Virus record (IMG/VR): IMGVR_UViG_3300034200_000774
Location: 1-40,480 of that record
Direction: 5' to 3' (one strand)
Origin: a virus
DNA: 40,480 bases
The position numbers and the translations under genes were made by a program. Positions 11,945-40,480 of this stretch are shown here, one piece after another. The notes beneath the pieces were generated by a model. It was not told the DNA's origin and searched no databases. It worked only from the letters and a program-made list of their open reading frames with translations. The number at the start of each line of letters is the position of its first letter. Position 1 is the stretch's first letter.

Positions 11945-14077
11945 GTGAAAACGTCAACGTGTATGGATGAAAAAAATCAAGAAATTATCGAGAAAGTCTT
12001 AGCCTATAAGTTGGAGGAACATCCGACGCTTCCGCTGCCGAATAAGCGGCAAAGGATGGAGATGATCCAGAACATTGGCCCGGAGAAGGTACTCGACTTG
12101 TTCTTGATGCGGGAGAACAAGATTAAGGCGGAACTGAACGATCCCATGCGGTATGGGCACGAACTGCCTCACTGGCCGGATGCGGATAAGCTCTTGGGCC
12201 GCTATAATGAACTGGTCGTCCTTGGTGGGAACAGATGCCTGGCTGGCGAGACGGAGATGATTGACGCAAAGACCGGCAAGAAAATGCGCCTAGATGCCAT
12301 CAGGAAGCCGTTCCATGTTTTGTCGATTGATGAGCAAACGCAGCAGGTTGTTGTGGCTGAAGCTGAGGTGCCATTTAAAAAGGCCAAGGCCGACTTGTTT
12401 GAAGTAAAGACAAACCTTGGGAGGCCGGTTGTTTGTTCTGGGGCGCACTTGGTAATGTGCAAGGATAAAACATGGGCTCCCATTTCAAGTCTGGCTGCTG
12501 GGTCAAAACTGTTTCATCCCATAGAAGATCTTGAAGTGGTTTCCATAGAGTTTGTGCGGAATGACTTTGTGTGGGATTTCACCGTTCCAGTATATCATAA
12601 CTACCTTCATGCAACGATAACACATCATAACAGTGGAAAAACTGAGTTTGCCGCCAAACGTATGGCCCAAGCTTTCATCGGCACGGACCTCAATGGCCAG
12701 GCGCCGGACTGGGTAAAAGAGCGTCACGGTAAGCGTAACATCCGCATCTGGTGCCTGCACACTACCCACATGACCAGCGTCTCTGCGCAGCAGAACGTCT
12801 TCTATAAGTACCTGCCGCCTGAGATACGCAACATTAAGCGAACTAATCATACGCAGATTAGCTTTAGCCAGAAGAACGGGTTCAGCGACAATACGGCCGT
12901 GTATATGGGTAACCAGATCTGGTTCCTCAACTACGCCCAGGACATCAAGGTCGTCGAAGGTGGCGAGGTAGACTACGTTTGGTGCGACGAACTTGTCCCA
13001 CAGAACTGGCTTGAGACGCTTCGCTACCGTTTGGTCACTCGGTCCGGCAAGCTTATCGTCACCTTTACGCCGGTGCAGGGCTACACCCAGGTCGTGAAGG
13101 AGTACATCAACAGCGCCAAGGTTACCGTTAGCCGCCCATCTCCATTGCTACCCAATCACAACGTCCTAACCGTTCCCAAGGGCGAGATGCCCTACCAAGC
13201 TGAGAACCTCTACGGACGACACGCCTGCATCTGGTATCATACCGAATTAAACCCGTATAACAACTGGGAGCGCATGAAGCAGGAGCTTTCGGGGCGCTCT
13301 AGCCATGACATCAAGATCCGCGCTTATGGTTGGGCAGATCAGACGGCTGGCTCTGAGTTCCCCATGTTTGGCGACCACAACCTGTGGAAAGGTGACGCCG
13401 AAGAGGTCATCCCCGAGGGTAGCAACTACATGGCCATCGATCCAGCAGGAGCGCGTAACTGGTTCATGCTTTGGGCTAGAGTAGATAAGCACGGTATACT
13501 ATGGGTCTATCGTGAATGGCCCGATCAAAGCTACGGTGAATGGGCGCTGCCTAGTGACAAGCCCGACGGTCGAGCTGGCCCGGCACAGAAGGCGGGTGCA
13601 GGCCGTGGAGTCAACGAGTACACCGAGCTTATCTGGAGCCTTGAGACTGCCGGTGACAAGCGTGAGATGATCGTGGACCGCTGGATTGACCCTAGAACCG
13701 CTGGCACAGAGACGATCACTAAAGACGGCGGTGTCACCGTGCTTGATTTGCTTAGTCAGGCTGATAATCCGCTCATATTTACTCCTGCCGCAGCCCTGCC
13801 AATTGAAGAGCGGGTGCTATTAATCAATGATCTTTTGTCATGGGACAGAGAAAAACCAATGGAAAAAGGAGTAAACCATCCAAAACTGATGATACATGAG
13901 TCTTGTCAGAACTTAATTTATAGTTTAAAGGAATGGACTGGACAAGATGGACAAAAAGGTGCTAGTAAAGATCCTATCGACGCTTTAGGCTATATGGTTG
14001 TCATGCAGCCAGCCTATTTTGGCGGCTTAGATTGGGAAAAACAATCTAAACGAATGTCTATGACAGGAAGTTATTAA
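11945..14077 (+). CDS. terL: Terminase large subunit with an embedded intein
   Basis: The 710-residue precursor is the packaging motor ATPase/nuclease. Removal of the 132-residue intein gives a 578-residue terminase. Extein motifs are LVVLGGNR joined to SGKTEFAAKRM (Walker A), GGEVDYVWCDELVP (Walker B with catalytic Glu), and KLIVTFTPVQGYT (coupling motif). The nuclease-domain acids are YMAIDPAGARNW, VDRWIDPR and a late KDPIDALGYMV. The GTG at 11945 and the ATG at 11963 are both possible starts; neither has an SD. Base composition shifts to AT-rich from about 13770, suggesting recombination in the nuclease domain. It is followed two bases later by the portal gene. Confidence 0.92.
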   Translation: MKTSTCMDEKNQEIIEKVLAYKLEEHPTLPLPNKRQRMEMIQNIGPEKVLDLFLMRENKIKAELNDPMRYGHELPHWPDADKLLGRYNELVVLGGNRCLAGETEMIDAKTGKKMRLDAIRKPFHVLSIDEQTQQVVVAEAEVPFKKAKADLFEVKTNLGRPVVCSGAHLVMCKDKTWAPISSLAAGSKLFHPIEDLEVVSIEFVRNDFVWDFTVPVYHNYLHATITHHNSGKTEFAAKRMAQAFIGTDLNGQAPDWVKERHGKRNIRIWCLHTTHMTSVSAQQNVFYKYLPPEIRNIKRTNHTQISFSQKNGFSDNTAVYMGNQIWFLNYAQDIKVVEGGEVDYVWCDELVPQNWLETLRYRLVTRSGKLIVTFTPVQGYTQVVKEYINSAKVTVSRPSPLLPNHNVLTVPKGEMPYQAENLYGRHACIWYHTELNPYNNWERMKQELSGRSSHDIKIRAYGWADQTAGSEFPMFGDHNLWKGDAEEVIPEGSNYMAIDPAGARNWFMLWARVDKHGILWVYREWPDQSYGEWALPSDKPDGRAGPAQKAGAGRGVNEYTELIWSLETAGDKREMIVDRWIDPRTAGTETITKDGGVTVLDLLSQADNPLIFTPAAALPIEERVLLINDLLSWDREKPMEKGVNHPKLMIHESCQNLIYSLKEWTGQDGQKGASKDPIDALGYMVVMQPAYFGGLDWEKQSKRMSMTGSY
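12236..12631 (+). mobile_element. Mini-intein (132 aa) in the Walker A motif of TerL
   Basis: The element begins with Cys (CLAGETEM, block A) and ends THHN directly before Ser (block G: penultimate His, terminal Asn, Ser+1). Between them are a block B-like GRPVVCSGAHLVM with the conserved His and Ser in place of the usual Thr three residues before it, then WAPISSLAAGS, and a block F WDFTVPVYHNYLHA. There is no LAGLIDADG or HNH endonuclease, so it is a class 1 mini-intein that cannot home by itself. Removal rebuilds GGNR-SGKTE exactly. Until it splices, TerL has no P-loop, so packaging depends on splicing. Confidence 0.93.
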
Positions 14078-17529: not shown

Positions 17530-18585
17530 ATGGCTATTCTTACTGAACCCCAACTTAGCGGTCGCGGTCTACGCGAAGATCTGATGGACATGATTGCGCT
17601 CGTTGACGCAAAGGACACTCCTTTTACGTCGATGGCTCGCAAAGGCAGCAAGCCCGGGAATATGTACTTCCGCTGGCAGTCTGACTCGCTTCCTACCCCT
17701 CAGGTAGGTGGTGTTGTGGACGGCACGGACGTTTCCAGCTACGACAACTACGTTGTTGGCTACCGCGCTGAACTCGCAAACTACGCACAGGTGTTCCGCC
17801 GTGCAGTGCGCGTGTCCAAGCTCACCCAGGACATCGCTGATGTCGCAGGTGTGCGTGACGAACTGGCTGACAACGTCAGCAAGGGCATCACTGGCATCAA
17901 GCGTGACATGGAAGCGACCTTCACGTCGAACCAGCTCTCGCAGCAGGACAATGGCACGACTCAGGCCTACCGCACCGCTGGTGTGCAGACCTGGATCAGC
18001 AACGCTGGTACTGGCACGCCTACTCCCGGAGACATCCCTTCGCAGTTCCGTACTCCTCTGACCTCGATCCTTACTGGTGCATCCAGCGGATTGACGGACG
18101 CAGGTGTGCAGGGACTTCTGAAGTCGATCTTCGACCAGACTGGCCACTACACCAGCTTCGACGCCATCGTCGGAACTGACCTGAAGCGTGCTTTCACCGG
18201 CTTGCTCGGAACGACGGCTCTAACCACGGTCAGCAACTCCAGCAACACGCTTGCTGCTGGTGCTACCAAGGTGCAGACCTTCCAGCGTGACGCTGCGGCT
18301 GACACCTTCATCCAGAGCTTGGACGTGTTCCAGGGTGACTTCGGAACGGTGCGTCTGCATCCTTCCACGTTCATCGGAACCGTGTCCGGCACGACCTGGA
18401 CGCCTGCACCTTACAAAGGTCTTGTGCTTGACATGAATCTCATCGAGGTTCGCTACGGCGGAAACGTCGCTAACGTCACTGCACTGCCAGATTACGGTGG
18501 TGGCCCTGCTCGCCTCATTGAGGCAGTTGCTGGTTTGGTTGTCGGCAACCCGCTCGGCCTTGGGAAATTCGACTACTCCTCCTAG
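17530..18585 (+). CDS. Major capsid protein (SU10/DUF5309-like, HK97 fold)
   Basis: A 351-residue protein following the scaffold gene. The opening GRGLREDLMDMIALVDAKDTP with a later MYFRWQSDSL matches the SU10-type major capsid family (DUF5309): a leading helix, the DTPF motif, then a W-x-x-D-x-L strand. The body is Thr/Ser-rich with high-abundance codon choice, as expected for the main virion protein. It ends at a double stop TAGTAG. A highly structured 342-bp non-coding stretch follows. The start follows an A/T-rich leader without SD. Confidence 0.88.
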   Translation: MAILTEPQLSGRGLREDLMDMIALVDAKDTPFTSMARKGSKPGNMYFRWQSDSLPTPQVGGVVDGTDVSSYDNYVVGYRAELANYAQVFRRAVRVSKLTQDIADVAGVRDELADNVSKGITGIKRDMEATFTSNQLSQQDNGTTQAYRTAGVQTWISNAGTGTPTPGDIPSQFRTPLTSILTGASSGLTDAGVQGLLKSIFDQTGHYTSFDAIVGTDLKRAFTGLLGTTALTTVSNSSNTLAAGATKVQTFQRDAAADTFIQSLDVFQGDFGTVRLHPSTFIGTVSGTTWTPAPYKGLVLDMNLIEVRYGGNVANVTALPDYGGGPARLIEAVAGLVVGNPLGLGKFDYSS

Positions 18586-18927
18586 TAGTTGTTGATCGGT
18601 GACACCTACTTTAGTGGTGTATGTGACCGTTCCCGCAGTATACTAGGACGGATCGAACGCCGGAAGCCCGCTAGGCGTGACACTCTGGAGAGACAGAGAT
18701 TATAGACCTGTCAAGGCTAGTGCAAAAGCATCCTCAAACCGATGGGTCACTTATTGCGACACCTGCTCGGCGGCTCCATGCCGCTAAGCATTGATTGGGT
18801 TTATTCCTGTCAATGAAGTGGTGTGACTAGCTGGAGAGACAGCCTCGTCGGCAACGCGACATGAAGCGTTGTGGGGAACGCACCTCTTAGTGGCGTGACA
18901 CCTCGGAGAGACGGGGACAATTTTACT
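18586..18927 (+). ncRNA. Structured region with three GAGAGA-loop hairpins downstream of capsid gene
   Basis: This gene-free 342-base stretch contains at least three copies of a two-hairpin unit. Second hairpins are CTCTG-GAGAGA-CAGAG (18683-18698), GCTG-GAGAGA-CAGC (18830-18843) and CCTCG-GAGAGA-CGGGG (18901-18916): the loop is constant and the stems differ with compensating changes. Each is preceded by TGAC and a first hairpin (for example ACGCC/GGCGT in unit 1 and ACGC/GCGT in unit 3). Further stems are ACACC/GGTGT near 18601-18620 and GCGGC/GCCGC at 18770-18784. The pattern says the RNA fold is selected. Its function is unknown; termination, processing, protein binding or antitermination are options. 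Confidence 0.6.
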
Positions 18928-19272
18928 ATGATTACAATTCCTACTGATTTAGTGCCGCAGCTTGAGCAAGAATTGCGTAAAGGCTGGCAGAAGAACCGTA
19001 TTGAAGCGGAAGTTCAAGCCAAGCAAAACGAAAAGATCAATAAGCAGAAGCATAGGTCAATAGAAGGATTGGGTCAGCTTACCGCAAGGATTCCTCCCAC
19101 GGCGTATCACTTTTGGGGACAGAAGCTCGGATACGAGTGTTGGAACGATAAAGCGTTCATGGATGAGTTTTTGCGTGACAATCCTGAGTGTCGAGTCAAT
19201 AGTGGAGGGACTAAAGAAATCCACGTTGGCTGGACACCAACCAATGTTCGTTCCCGTACCGTTTATCAATGA
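18928..19272 (+). CDS. Conserved phage head-region protein
   Basis: A 114-residue protein. Its core, SIEGLGQLTARIPPTAYHFW followed by GQKLGYECWNDKAFMDEFL and RDNPECRVNSGGTKEIHVGW, is a conserved block in small proteins found after capsid genes in many podovirus-like phages. Its function is not known to me; a virion or assembly role is likely from position. The ATG at 18928 lies 11 bases after the third GAGAGA hairpin, so that hairpin may affect its translation. The stop overlaps the next gene. Confidence 0.65.
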   Translation: MITIPTDLVPQLEQELRKGWQKNRIEAEVQAKQNEKINKQKHRSIEGLGQLTARIPPTAYHFWGQKLGYECWNDKAFMDEFLRDNPECRVNSGGTKEIHVGWTPTNVRSRTVYQ

Positions 19273-20477
19273 AGACCGTTCCGTTTAGCGACATTCTTGC
19301 TTCTGTCTGCCAACTTGTTGGTCTGGATCGCGCTACGCTAAACGATAAGTCTTTTGGCGCAATACGCGACTTTACGAGTCGCCGGTTGTCGGTTGTGTGG
19401 GATCGTGAGGAGTGGCCTGATGTGCAAAGATACATGTACACTTGGCCTGGGATGCCAGTGTCCTCGATTGAGTCTGGGTTAAACATTCTTGCGTCGGAAA
19501 GCAATGTGCCGCTTTCGACCGAAGACGGCGAAGACTTCTTTACCGAGAACGAGCTTAACACGAACACGACTCGGATTAACTTTGACACAAACTTCAAGCG
19601 GATTTACCTGCAAGACTTTTTGCATGACAGGTACAAGCTGGGCACAGTTGGCGAGTCGTATGTGAAGTTCTTGAACCCGTTCTACGGCTCCGTGGATGAC
19701 GGTCCGCTGACCTCCGTTGGCGAGAACCAATACAACTTCACTTACTCAACAGCCACCGATAGCCTCGGCGAATACATCACAAATGTCGTGATTGAGGTTG
19801 AGTTCACTAACACGAACTACTTCACCTACAACGGCCCGAATTCGCCGCTTACGACCAAGGCGTTGTTCATGGACAACCAGCAGTTGTTGATCCAGATTCC
19901 ACAGGGATCGCTGCAAGGTTTGGCTATTTACACGAACGACCCGCGGCAGACAACCAAGGCTATTCCGCTGCCGTTTATTGCGGAGGACTTTGCCGATCAG
20001 ACGCCCCAAGACTTTGGCGACGACGTTAACTACCTGCGCACTTTCAATACATCGAAGCAGTTCGTGCAGTACCGGCTTACACCGCCGCGCATGTTTGGTG
20101 TGAAGTACGACAACACATCGGTGTACTCCGCGGGGTCACAGATCTACTTTGACCTTGGCCAGAATAGCGGCAGTTATAGCATTAACGACAAGACCAAAGC
20201 CAGCAATGGCAACTTCTTCTTTGCGACGACCAACGTAACTTCCGGGGTAACGCCGGTGAACCAGACCACAGATATCTGGCAACAAGTTGAGATTCCTGCG
20301 CGGTTCAGGGATTACTTGGCCAACTCTGTTTCGTCTGACTTCCTTAAGTCTGAAGGTCGCGCTGATGAAGCTGTCGTGCTCGAGCAGTTGGCTGAGTCTG
20401 CAATTCAGCAGCAGATTGACGTTCTTATCCGCCAGCAGGCGCAAAATCAACGCCTGAACATGGCCTACACCTACTAA
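19269..20477 (+). CDS. Virion structural protein, candidate head-tail adaptor
   Basis: A 402-residue protein starting MKTVPFSDILASVCQLVGLD, with an N-terminal helical segment (FGAIRDFTSRRLSVVWDREEW) and then a long beta-rich body. The N-terminal pattern is seen in connector/tail-tube proteins that follow the capsid gene in podoviruses. The C-terminus is a Gln-rich helix (ESAIQQQIDVLIRQQAQNQR). I infer an adaptor or tail-tube role from order and length only. Confidence 0.5.
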   Translation: MKTVPFSDILASVCQLVGLDRATLNDKSFGAIRDFTSRRLSVVWDREEWPDVQRYMYTWPGMPVSSIESGLNILASESNVPLSTEDGEDFFTENELNTNTTRINFDTNFKRIYLQDFLHDRYKLGTVGESYVKFLNPFYGSVDDGPLTSVGENQYNFTYSTATDSLGEYITNVVIEVEFTNTNYFTYNGPNSPLTTKALFMDNQQLLIQIPQGSLQGLAIYTNDPRQTTKAIPLPFIAEDFADQTPQDFGDDVNYLRTFNTSKQFVQYRLTPPRMFGVKYDNTSVYSAGSQIYFDLGQNSGSYSINDKTKASNGNFFFATTNVTSGVTPVNQTTDIWQQVEIPARFRDYLANSVSSDFLKSEGRADEAVVLEQLAESAIQQQIDVLIRQQAQNQRLNMAYTY

Positions 20478-28167: not shown

Positions 28168-28347
28168 ATGGACGAGTTTGTTGGCAAGGTTCTTACTCAC
28201 ATCTTCGACCAAGGCTTAACGGTGTCGCTACTGGCACTGGCGCTGTATTATCTGCACAGTAAACTAAACAAACTAGAGTGTAAGATCTCCGAGTGCGAGC
28301 AAGACAGGCTCAAGCTCTGGGAACGAATCGCTCAACTTCACGACTGA
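28168..28347 (+). CDS. Membrane-anchored coiled-coil protein, holin/spanin-like
   Basis: A 59-residue protein with one hydrophobic helix, GLTVSLLALALYYL, followed by a charged coiled coil (HSKLNKLECKISECEQDRLK). Small single-helix proteins with a coiled-coil tail before an endolysin gene are typical of holins, antiholins or inner-membrane spanins. It lies two bases after the previous stop and just before a second hydrophobic protein. Confidence 0.55.
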   Translation: MDEFVGKVLTHIFDQGLTVSLLALALYYLHSKLNKLECKISECEQDRLKLWERIAQLHD

Positions 28348-40353: not shown

Positions 40354-40480
40354 TGGTTCATCGATGAAACACAACAAAAATGAAAGTAGCACAAATTAGC
40401 GACATTCAGAACTTGGCCGATGGCAGCGTCATCGGAGAAATGCGGGTGACGATCAAAGCGACGTTCCCGCCTAAAACTGG
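40354..40480. repeat. Right copy of 127-bp terminal direct repeat (contig overlap)
   Basis: Exact copy of bases 1-127. It includes the leader and a partial second copy of the SSB-like gene start (ATG at 40380), which should not be annotated as a separate gene. Confidence 0.95.

Follow-up and report, generated by a model that had tools for sequence, protein, structure and literature searches.

The three tandem RNA units that lie behind the capsid gene of the virus analyzed here are members of a structured RNA family that is widespread among mobile genetic elements. The window that we analyzed is the full 40,480-nucleotide stretch of IMG/VR record IMGVR_UViG_3300034200_000774 (positions 1 to 40,480). 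In each unit, which is under structural selection, the linker GAC joins two hairpins, P1 and P2. We tentatively favor the reading that the motif is a cis-acting RNA antiterminator, which would act in the manner of HK022 put or Tn916 canT although it is unrelated to put in sequence.

A tandem array of two-hairpin RNA units

The array fills the gap between the stop codon of the capsid gene and the ATG of the next gene with three full units and one degenerate copy (Table 1). The original prediction described three GAGAGA hairpins with different but intact stems in the region 18586-18927, each preceded by (G)TGAC and a first stem-loop, and all of these features are present. It also judged units 1 and 3 to be alike, and both indeed have the P1 stem ACGC(C)/(G)GCGT, whereas unit 2 has ACACC/GGTGT. 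In unit 2, the P1 loop holds a 56-nt insert that forms its own hairpin. At the position of the degenerate copy, relatives such as L020 have GACAGCCGGAGAGACGGC.

Table 1. Features of the array and its flanking genes, in window coordinates
Feature	Position	Strand	Details
Major capsid protein gene, 5' of the array (stop codon at 18585)	17530..18585	+	PHROG 1328 major head protein, E 1.9e-39
Degenerate copy (P1 hairpin ACACC/GGTGT without P2)	18598..18620	+	R2 11.5 bits, E 0.088
Accessory hairpin 5' of unit 1 (CCGTTC...GGACGG)	18627..18651	+	
Unit 1	18653..18702	+	R2 E 5.3e-8
Unit 1 parts			P1 18657-18661/18674-18678; GAC 18679-18681; P2 (CTCTG/CAGAG, 18683-18698) 18683-18687/18694-18698; GAGAGA 18688-18693
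Unit 2	18755..18848	+	R2 E 3.8e-9
Unit 2 parts			P1 18759-18763/18820-18824; GAC 18825-18827; P2 (GCTG/CAGC, 18830-18843) 18830-18833/18840-18843; loop 18834-18839
Accessory hairpin 5' of unit 3 (GCAACGC/GCGTTGT)	18851..18872	+	
Unit 3	18874..18920	+	R2 E 1.6e-9
Unit 3 parts			P1 18878-18881/18893-18896; GAC 18897-18899; P2 (CCTCG/CGGGG, one G.U pair, 18901-18916) 18901-18905/18912-18916; loop 18906-18911
G-poor, T-rich tail (ACAATTTTACT) 3' of the last P2, reaching the next start codon	18917..18928	+	
Next late gene, function unknown (ATG 18929)	18929..19272	+	Frame kept in relatives; without PHROG match

A search with the capsid protein yielded 80 related contigs, of which the 71 that extend 250 nt or more downstream of the gene were used for comparison. 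The sequence GGAGAGAC occurs in the 700 nt that follow the capsid stop codon in all 71 relatives, in one to four copies with varying spacing, and is found elsewhere in the same contigs at 0.0025 per 700 nt. Behind capsid genes, the base that follows GGAGAGA is C in 159 of 159 cases. Between 97 and 100% of cells are paired in the alignments, a value that is partly built in because alignment units had to pair for selection. A selection-free test was also conducted on all GTGGTGTGAC-N3-6-GGAGAGAC matches with GACACC upstream, and the control consisted of P2 arms shuffled between matches. At least three further P2 pairs are present in 88 of the 113 distinct arm pairs (shuffled mean 15.2, maximum 25), and in 38 of 45 when the test is confined to sites behind capsid genes (7.5 shuffled).

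We also used a covariance model, R2, that was trained solely on unrelated phage and bacterial loci, which have no tested protein in common with this phage and no 20-mer in common with the region. Its scan of the window returned exactly units 3, 2, and 1 and nothing else strong. Selection on RNA structure, as claimed in the original prediction, is supported by the pairing in the alignments and by arm shuffling. The structure belongs to the plus-strand RNA because its G.U pairs would read A.C on the other strand. Single-sequence folding is modestly exceptional (z of -2.2 for the whole region and of -0.65, -3.0, and -2.8 for the units), and for unit 2 a competing structure has the lowest energy. 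Therefore, the case for the structure is comparative rather than energetic.

Across the family, a unit comprises a short 5' flank, P1, the GAC linker, and P2, with a conserved core of about 45 nt. The basal A-U and C-G pairs of P1 never vary, and its loop serves as a free insertion site whose inserts differ greatly in size among family members. P2 has 4-5 freely covarying base pairs and an invariant G-C pair that closes the loop (G[GAGAGA]C), which places the constant loop at a fixed distance of 4-5 bp from the linker. P1 occurs in two interchangeable versions: class 1 (GYG-ACACC...GGUGU-GAC, as in unit 2) and class 2 (GGA-ACGCC...GGCGU-GAC, as in units 1 and 3). The identity of the two flank bases goes with that of the third P1 pair (n=65): YG accompanies A-U 36 times and GA accompanies G-C 23 times. 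Class-2 units often have an extra hairpin on their 5' side, which in 14 of 71 carries a constant GACG loop on varying stems. A kink-turn at the P1/P2 junction was ruled out, as the second stem has no room. In Gammaproteobacteria, a conserved hairpin CGCTCGC...GCCCAGCG precedes the element (L407 1250-1700, minus strand; L306, L317, L340, and L352), and the RNA may therefore be larger there.

On the 3' side of P2, family members are depleted in G from +1 to +7 and rich in U from +4 to +7, with T at about 50% from +4 to +6. T-phi of phage T7 exemplifies an intrinsic terminator behind a capsid gene, and the array shares its position behind the major capsid gene. However, the terminator signature is missing: a search of 18300-19300 for a GC-rich hairpin with a direct U tract found 0 sites, and the T-rich part begins 4 nt after P2. 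Alternatively, the GGAG in the loop could be a Shine-Dalgarno sequence that a translation-control hairpin hides or offers. The distance from P2 to the ATG does peak at 8-9 nt in a subset of copies, but 79 of 261 have no ATG in the next ~45 nt. We regard both the terminator and the translation-control readings as very improbable.

Searched against Rfam 15, the window region 18560-18960 matched no family, whether at the gathering threshold or at E values up to 10, in agreement with the earlier view that the RNA belongs to no known family. Likewise, an Rfam search of 18 bacterial loci carrying the motif returned tRNAs only, and ARAGORN found 0 tRNA or tmRNA genes in the window. A small self-cleaving ribozyme could have a compact invariant core around a junction, a loop that tolerates inserts, and a distribution over many phages and mobile elements, but no Rfam ribozyme family matches the motif and we consider this explanation quite unlikely. 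Our search of the open-access literature found no description of the motif, although one may exist in subscription journals or preprints, and a text search for the motif letters returned unrelated primer matches only. The RNA family appears to be undescribed so far.

Distribution and genomic context

Covariance-model and pattern scans found related copies in many phages, plasmids, and integrative elements, where for viral contigs the matches listed from pattern scans are a lower bound. The carriers belong to Gammaproteobacteria, Alphaproteobacteria, Actinobacteria, Cyanobacteria, Chloroflexi (Bellilinea), Bacilli, and other groups. A scan of GTDB genomes matched 69 contigs, many with a complete upstream half and part of them chance matches without P1. 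Phage carriers include Marinobacter phage PS3, Sinorhizobium phage phiM9, Gordonia phages, Mannheimia phage 587AP2, Aggregatibacter phage S1249, Pasteurella phage Pmp14, and Planktothrix phage Pag-Yong1, and plasmid carriers occur in Microbulbifer, Marinobacter, Vibrio, and Sedimenticola. Neighbors at bacterial loci include genes for phage integrase, CagX/VirB9, primase, and a Clp-type protease as well as restriction genes. Cellular genomes rarely carry the motif (2 of 274 Gammaproteobacteria, one being the seed genome) and the E. coli genomes searched gave no match, which rules out a chromosomal housekeeping RNA.

Several candidate matches were not accepted. Those on E. coli and E. albertii plasmids are weak (21 nt), and one near the 3' end of a Leviviricetes ssRNA phage is a GGAAAGAC variant that has no further support and is taken as chance. 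Similarity of the whole array to named phages is limited to short, chance-like matches. Among relatives in the phage family of the window (L425-L431), some genomes carry a second array, which lies in the early region after a gene for a RusA-like resolvase, and modules are common to the capsid-side and RusA-side arrays in these relatives. The second array is absent from the window phage and from some relatives.

To describe orientation, we used 82 viral copies with usable flanks and a simple ORF definition (110 aa or longer), which replaced a noisier ORF-context statistic based on 50-aa ORFs. Most copies are sense-oriented: 67 have a codirectional downstream gene, 64 have a codirectional upstream gene, and 5 are antisense to both neighbors. 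The motif is located mostly in long untranslated stretches (the noncoding span around viral copies has a median of 473 nt) and in tRNA arrays, and a tRNA or ORF often follows immediately. A tRNA gene lies within 400 nt of 21 of 134 copies, always on the same strand, compared to 7.3 expected at random positions, and this proximity may partly just reflect the fact that both sit in noncoding DNA.

Two viral contigs of 127-138 kb (L131 275-792; L122 2571-3137, minus strand) have the element interleaved with intron-bearing tRNA genes, for whose detection ARAGORN needs 20-80 nt introns to be allowed. Several of the insertions have a common ACAGCA near the 3' part, and one gene of the set has a stop (TTA) anticodon. 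In phiM9 and a Gordonia phage (L381 2900-3000; L382 1000-1060), T-arm-like sequences (GGTTCGAGTCC and GGGTTCGAGACCC) occur close to the element, and ARAGORN calls no tRNA at these sites.

The original prediction was framed around the capsid gene and a late gene, and this framing is not supported because copies also occur in the leaders of early operons, in tRNA arrays, and in conjugation operons and plasmids. For the same reason, a packaged small RNA is unlikely, as is a capsid-specific binding site. The part of the protein-binding proposal that we retain is a decoy or sponge, whose highly transcribed loops would titrate a host RNA-binding protein or defense factor. A constant loop on free stems and tandem copies of variable number would suit such a role, as would the site behind what is presumably the most expressed gene in the capsid-relative family. 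However, single copies occur in low-expression settings (plasmids and leaders) and the target would need to be conserved across several phyla; we view a decoy as improbable.

Proposed antitermination and its strongest rival

To our knowledge, very few systems of RNA-only antiterminators are known (put, canT, and EAR). The motif would be a new variant of this mechanism if the best explanation holds. We infer both the polymerase as the partner and antitermination as the output, by analogy with put and canT. The nascent core would fold compactly and dock on some conserved component of the host's transcription apparatus; the elongation complex would then resist pausing and termination, as with HK022 put and supposedly canT. 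In the window phage, the tandem units 3' of the capsid gene would re-arm polymerase heading into the distal late genes. With slightly less confidence, we suggest that the family may be a phylum-spanning class of RNA-only antiterminators whose sequence and fold are independent of put and which are used in tandem, including in late operons and tRNA arrays.

HK022 putL and putR are RNA-only processive antiterminators that sit at the RNA exit channel, on the beta' zinc-binding domain; in their fold, stem II is long and stem I contains an RNA triplex (PMC9378689). Like put, the motif has two hairpins, a short linker, and presumed non-canonical junction pairs, and a partner protein is not evident. 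In three Pasteurellaceae phages it is also a leader site after cI, as put is in lambdoid phages. Its sequence and fold differ from those of put, and it spans many phyla, forms tandem arrays, and extends to late operons; the array in the window is in the late region, whereas put is downstream of an early lambdoid promoter. We located putL (AGACGAAC...CGUCUU) at HK022 28293-28310 on the minus strand, and an R1 scan of HK022 returned nothing there, with its best match (6.2 bits) elsewhere. A match at HK022 28674 reads GDSMEG and is taken as cI coding sequence rather than as a put homolog.

For Tn916 canT, in an integrative conjugative element, a cis-acting RNA antiterminator is the favored reading; its activity was mapped to 341-452 nt and the paper reports no resolved structure (PMC11658703). 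The motif, whose core is about 45 nt, is likened to canT by description only, as an RNA-only candidate in a mobile element. The compact RNA, its invariant linker and loop, its presence in leaders and in untranslated or tRNA-rich transcripts of mobile elements from many phyla, and the lack of a partner gene fit put-like action. Its target would have to be conserved, and RNA that ribosomes do not cover is the kind on which Rho can act.

The best-annotated contexts agree with antitermination, which was among the roles first proposed. In the three Pasteurellaceae lambdoid phages, the element is on the leftward transcript between cI and the early-left genes, which is where HK022 has putL and lambda has nutL/N. 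A boxA lies 334 nt upstream in Aggregatibacter S1249 and 236 nt upstream in Mannheimia 587AP2, and Pasteurella Pmp14 has boxA-like sites about 440 and 920 nt 5' of the element with small ORFs annotated between. All three have an annotated Q and no annotated N, and in 587AP2 intrinsic terminators are annotated within the operon behind the element and ahead of the distal genes. Two Pasteurellaceae early-left leaders (L420 34289-34930 and L380 2680-3040) comprise a promoter, boxA, a noncoding stretch of 230-330 nt whose RNA is apparently structured, and the element. In Planktothrix phage Pag-Yong1, two tandem copies lie in a 749-nt leader that heads 32 codirectional genes, an operon of ~14 kb. 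The sense orientation, long noncoding spans, same-strand tRNA proximity, and carriers in several phyla also favor antitermination.

Other observations stand against it. HK022 has put sites in both early operons, whereas a search for a PR-side copy in the Pasteurellaceae phages found the element on the left side only. The boxB-N pair of lambda nut is absent, and boxA is hundreds of nucleotides away where present and missing from most copies; its exact core is within 800 nt of 5 of 274 copies (2.1 expected), and a general dependence on boxA is not supported. One copy should suffice, yet arrays reach four, and a sequence relation to put is absent.

Copies at operon 3' ends that face a convergent gene (Sedimenticola and Marinobacter plasmids and phage PS3) also do not favor antitermination and would suit an RNA processing or 3'-end stability element, which is the strongest rival, followed by the protein decoy and then the ribozyme. 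Here P1-P2 would shield upstream RNA such as capsid mRNA or tRNA precursors, and the U-rich, G-poor tail would be an RNase E-type cut site that separates polycistronic transcripts. Placement between genes and between tRNAs, often right before the next one, and the tail composition are consistent with this role. However, it leaves the invariant GAC and GAGAGA unexplained, since stability hairpins require no constant loop, and sites just behind early promoters would be odd; we consider it plausible but unlikely. If, as antitermination would have it, the RNA binds host RNA polymerase, then such RNAs would be a common currency of mobile elements. With any other function, the motif would be a strongly conserved ~45-nt core with an apparently universal target.

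Further observations concern the window as a whole. A search for phage RNA polymerase with PF00940 matched nothing in the window, and its controls were not matched either. A 710-aa protein at the terminase position (11945-14077) has a below-threshold match to the intein-splicing family PF14890 (E 6.4e-6, residues 111-177). Furthermore, a 127-nt direct repeat is present at the window ends (1-127 and 40354-40480), and thus the genome is probably complete and either circular or terminally redundant.
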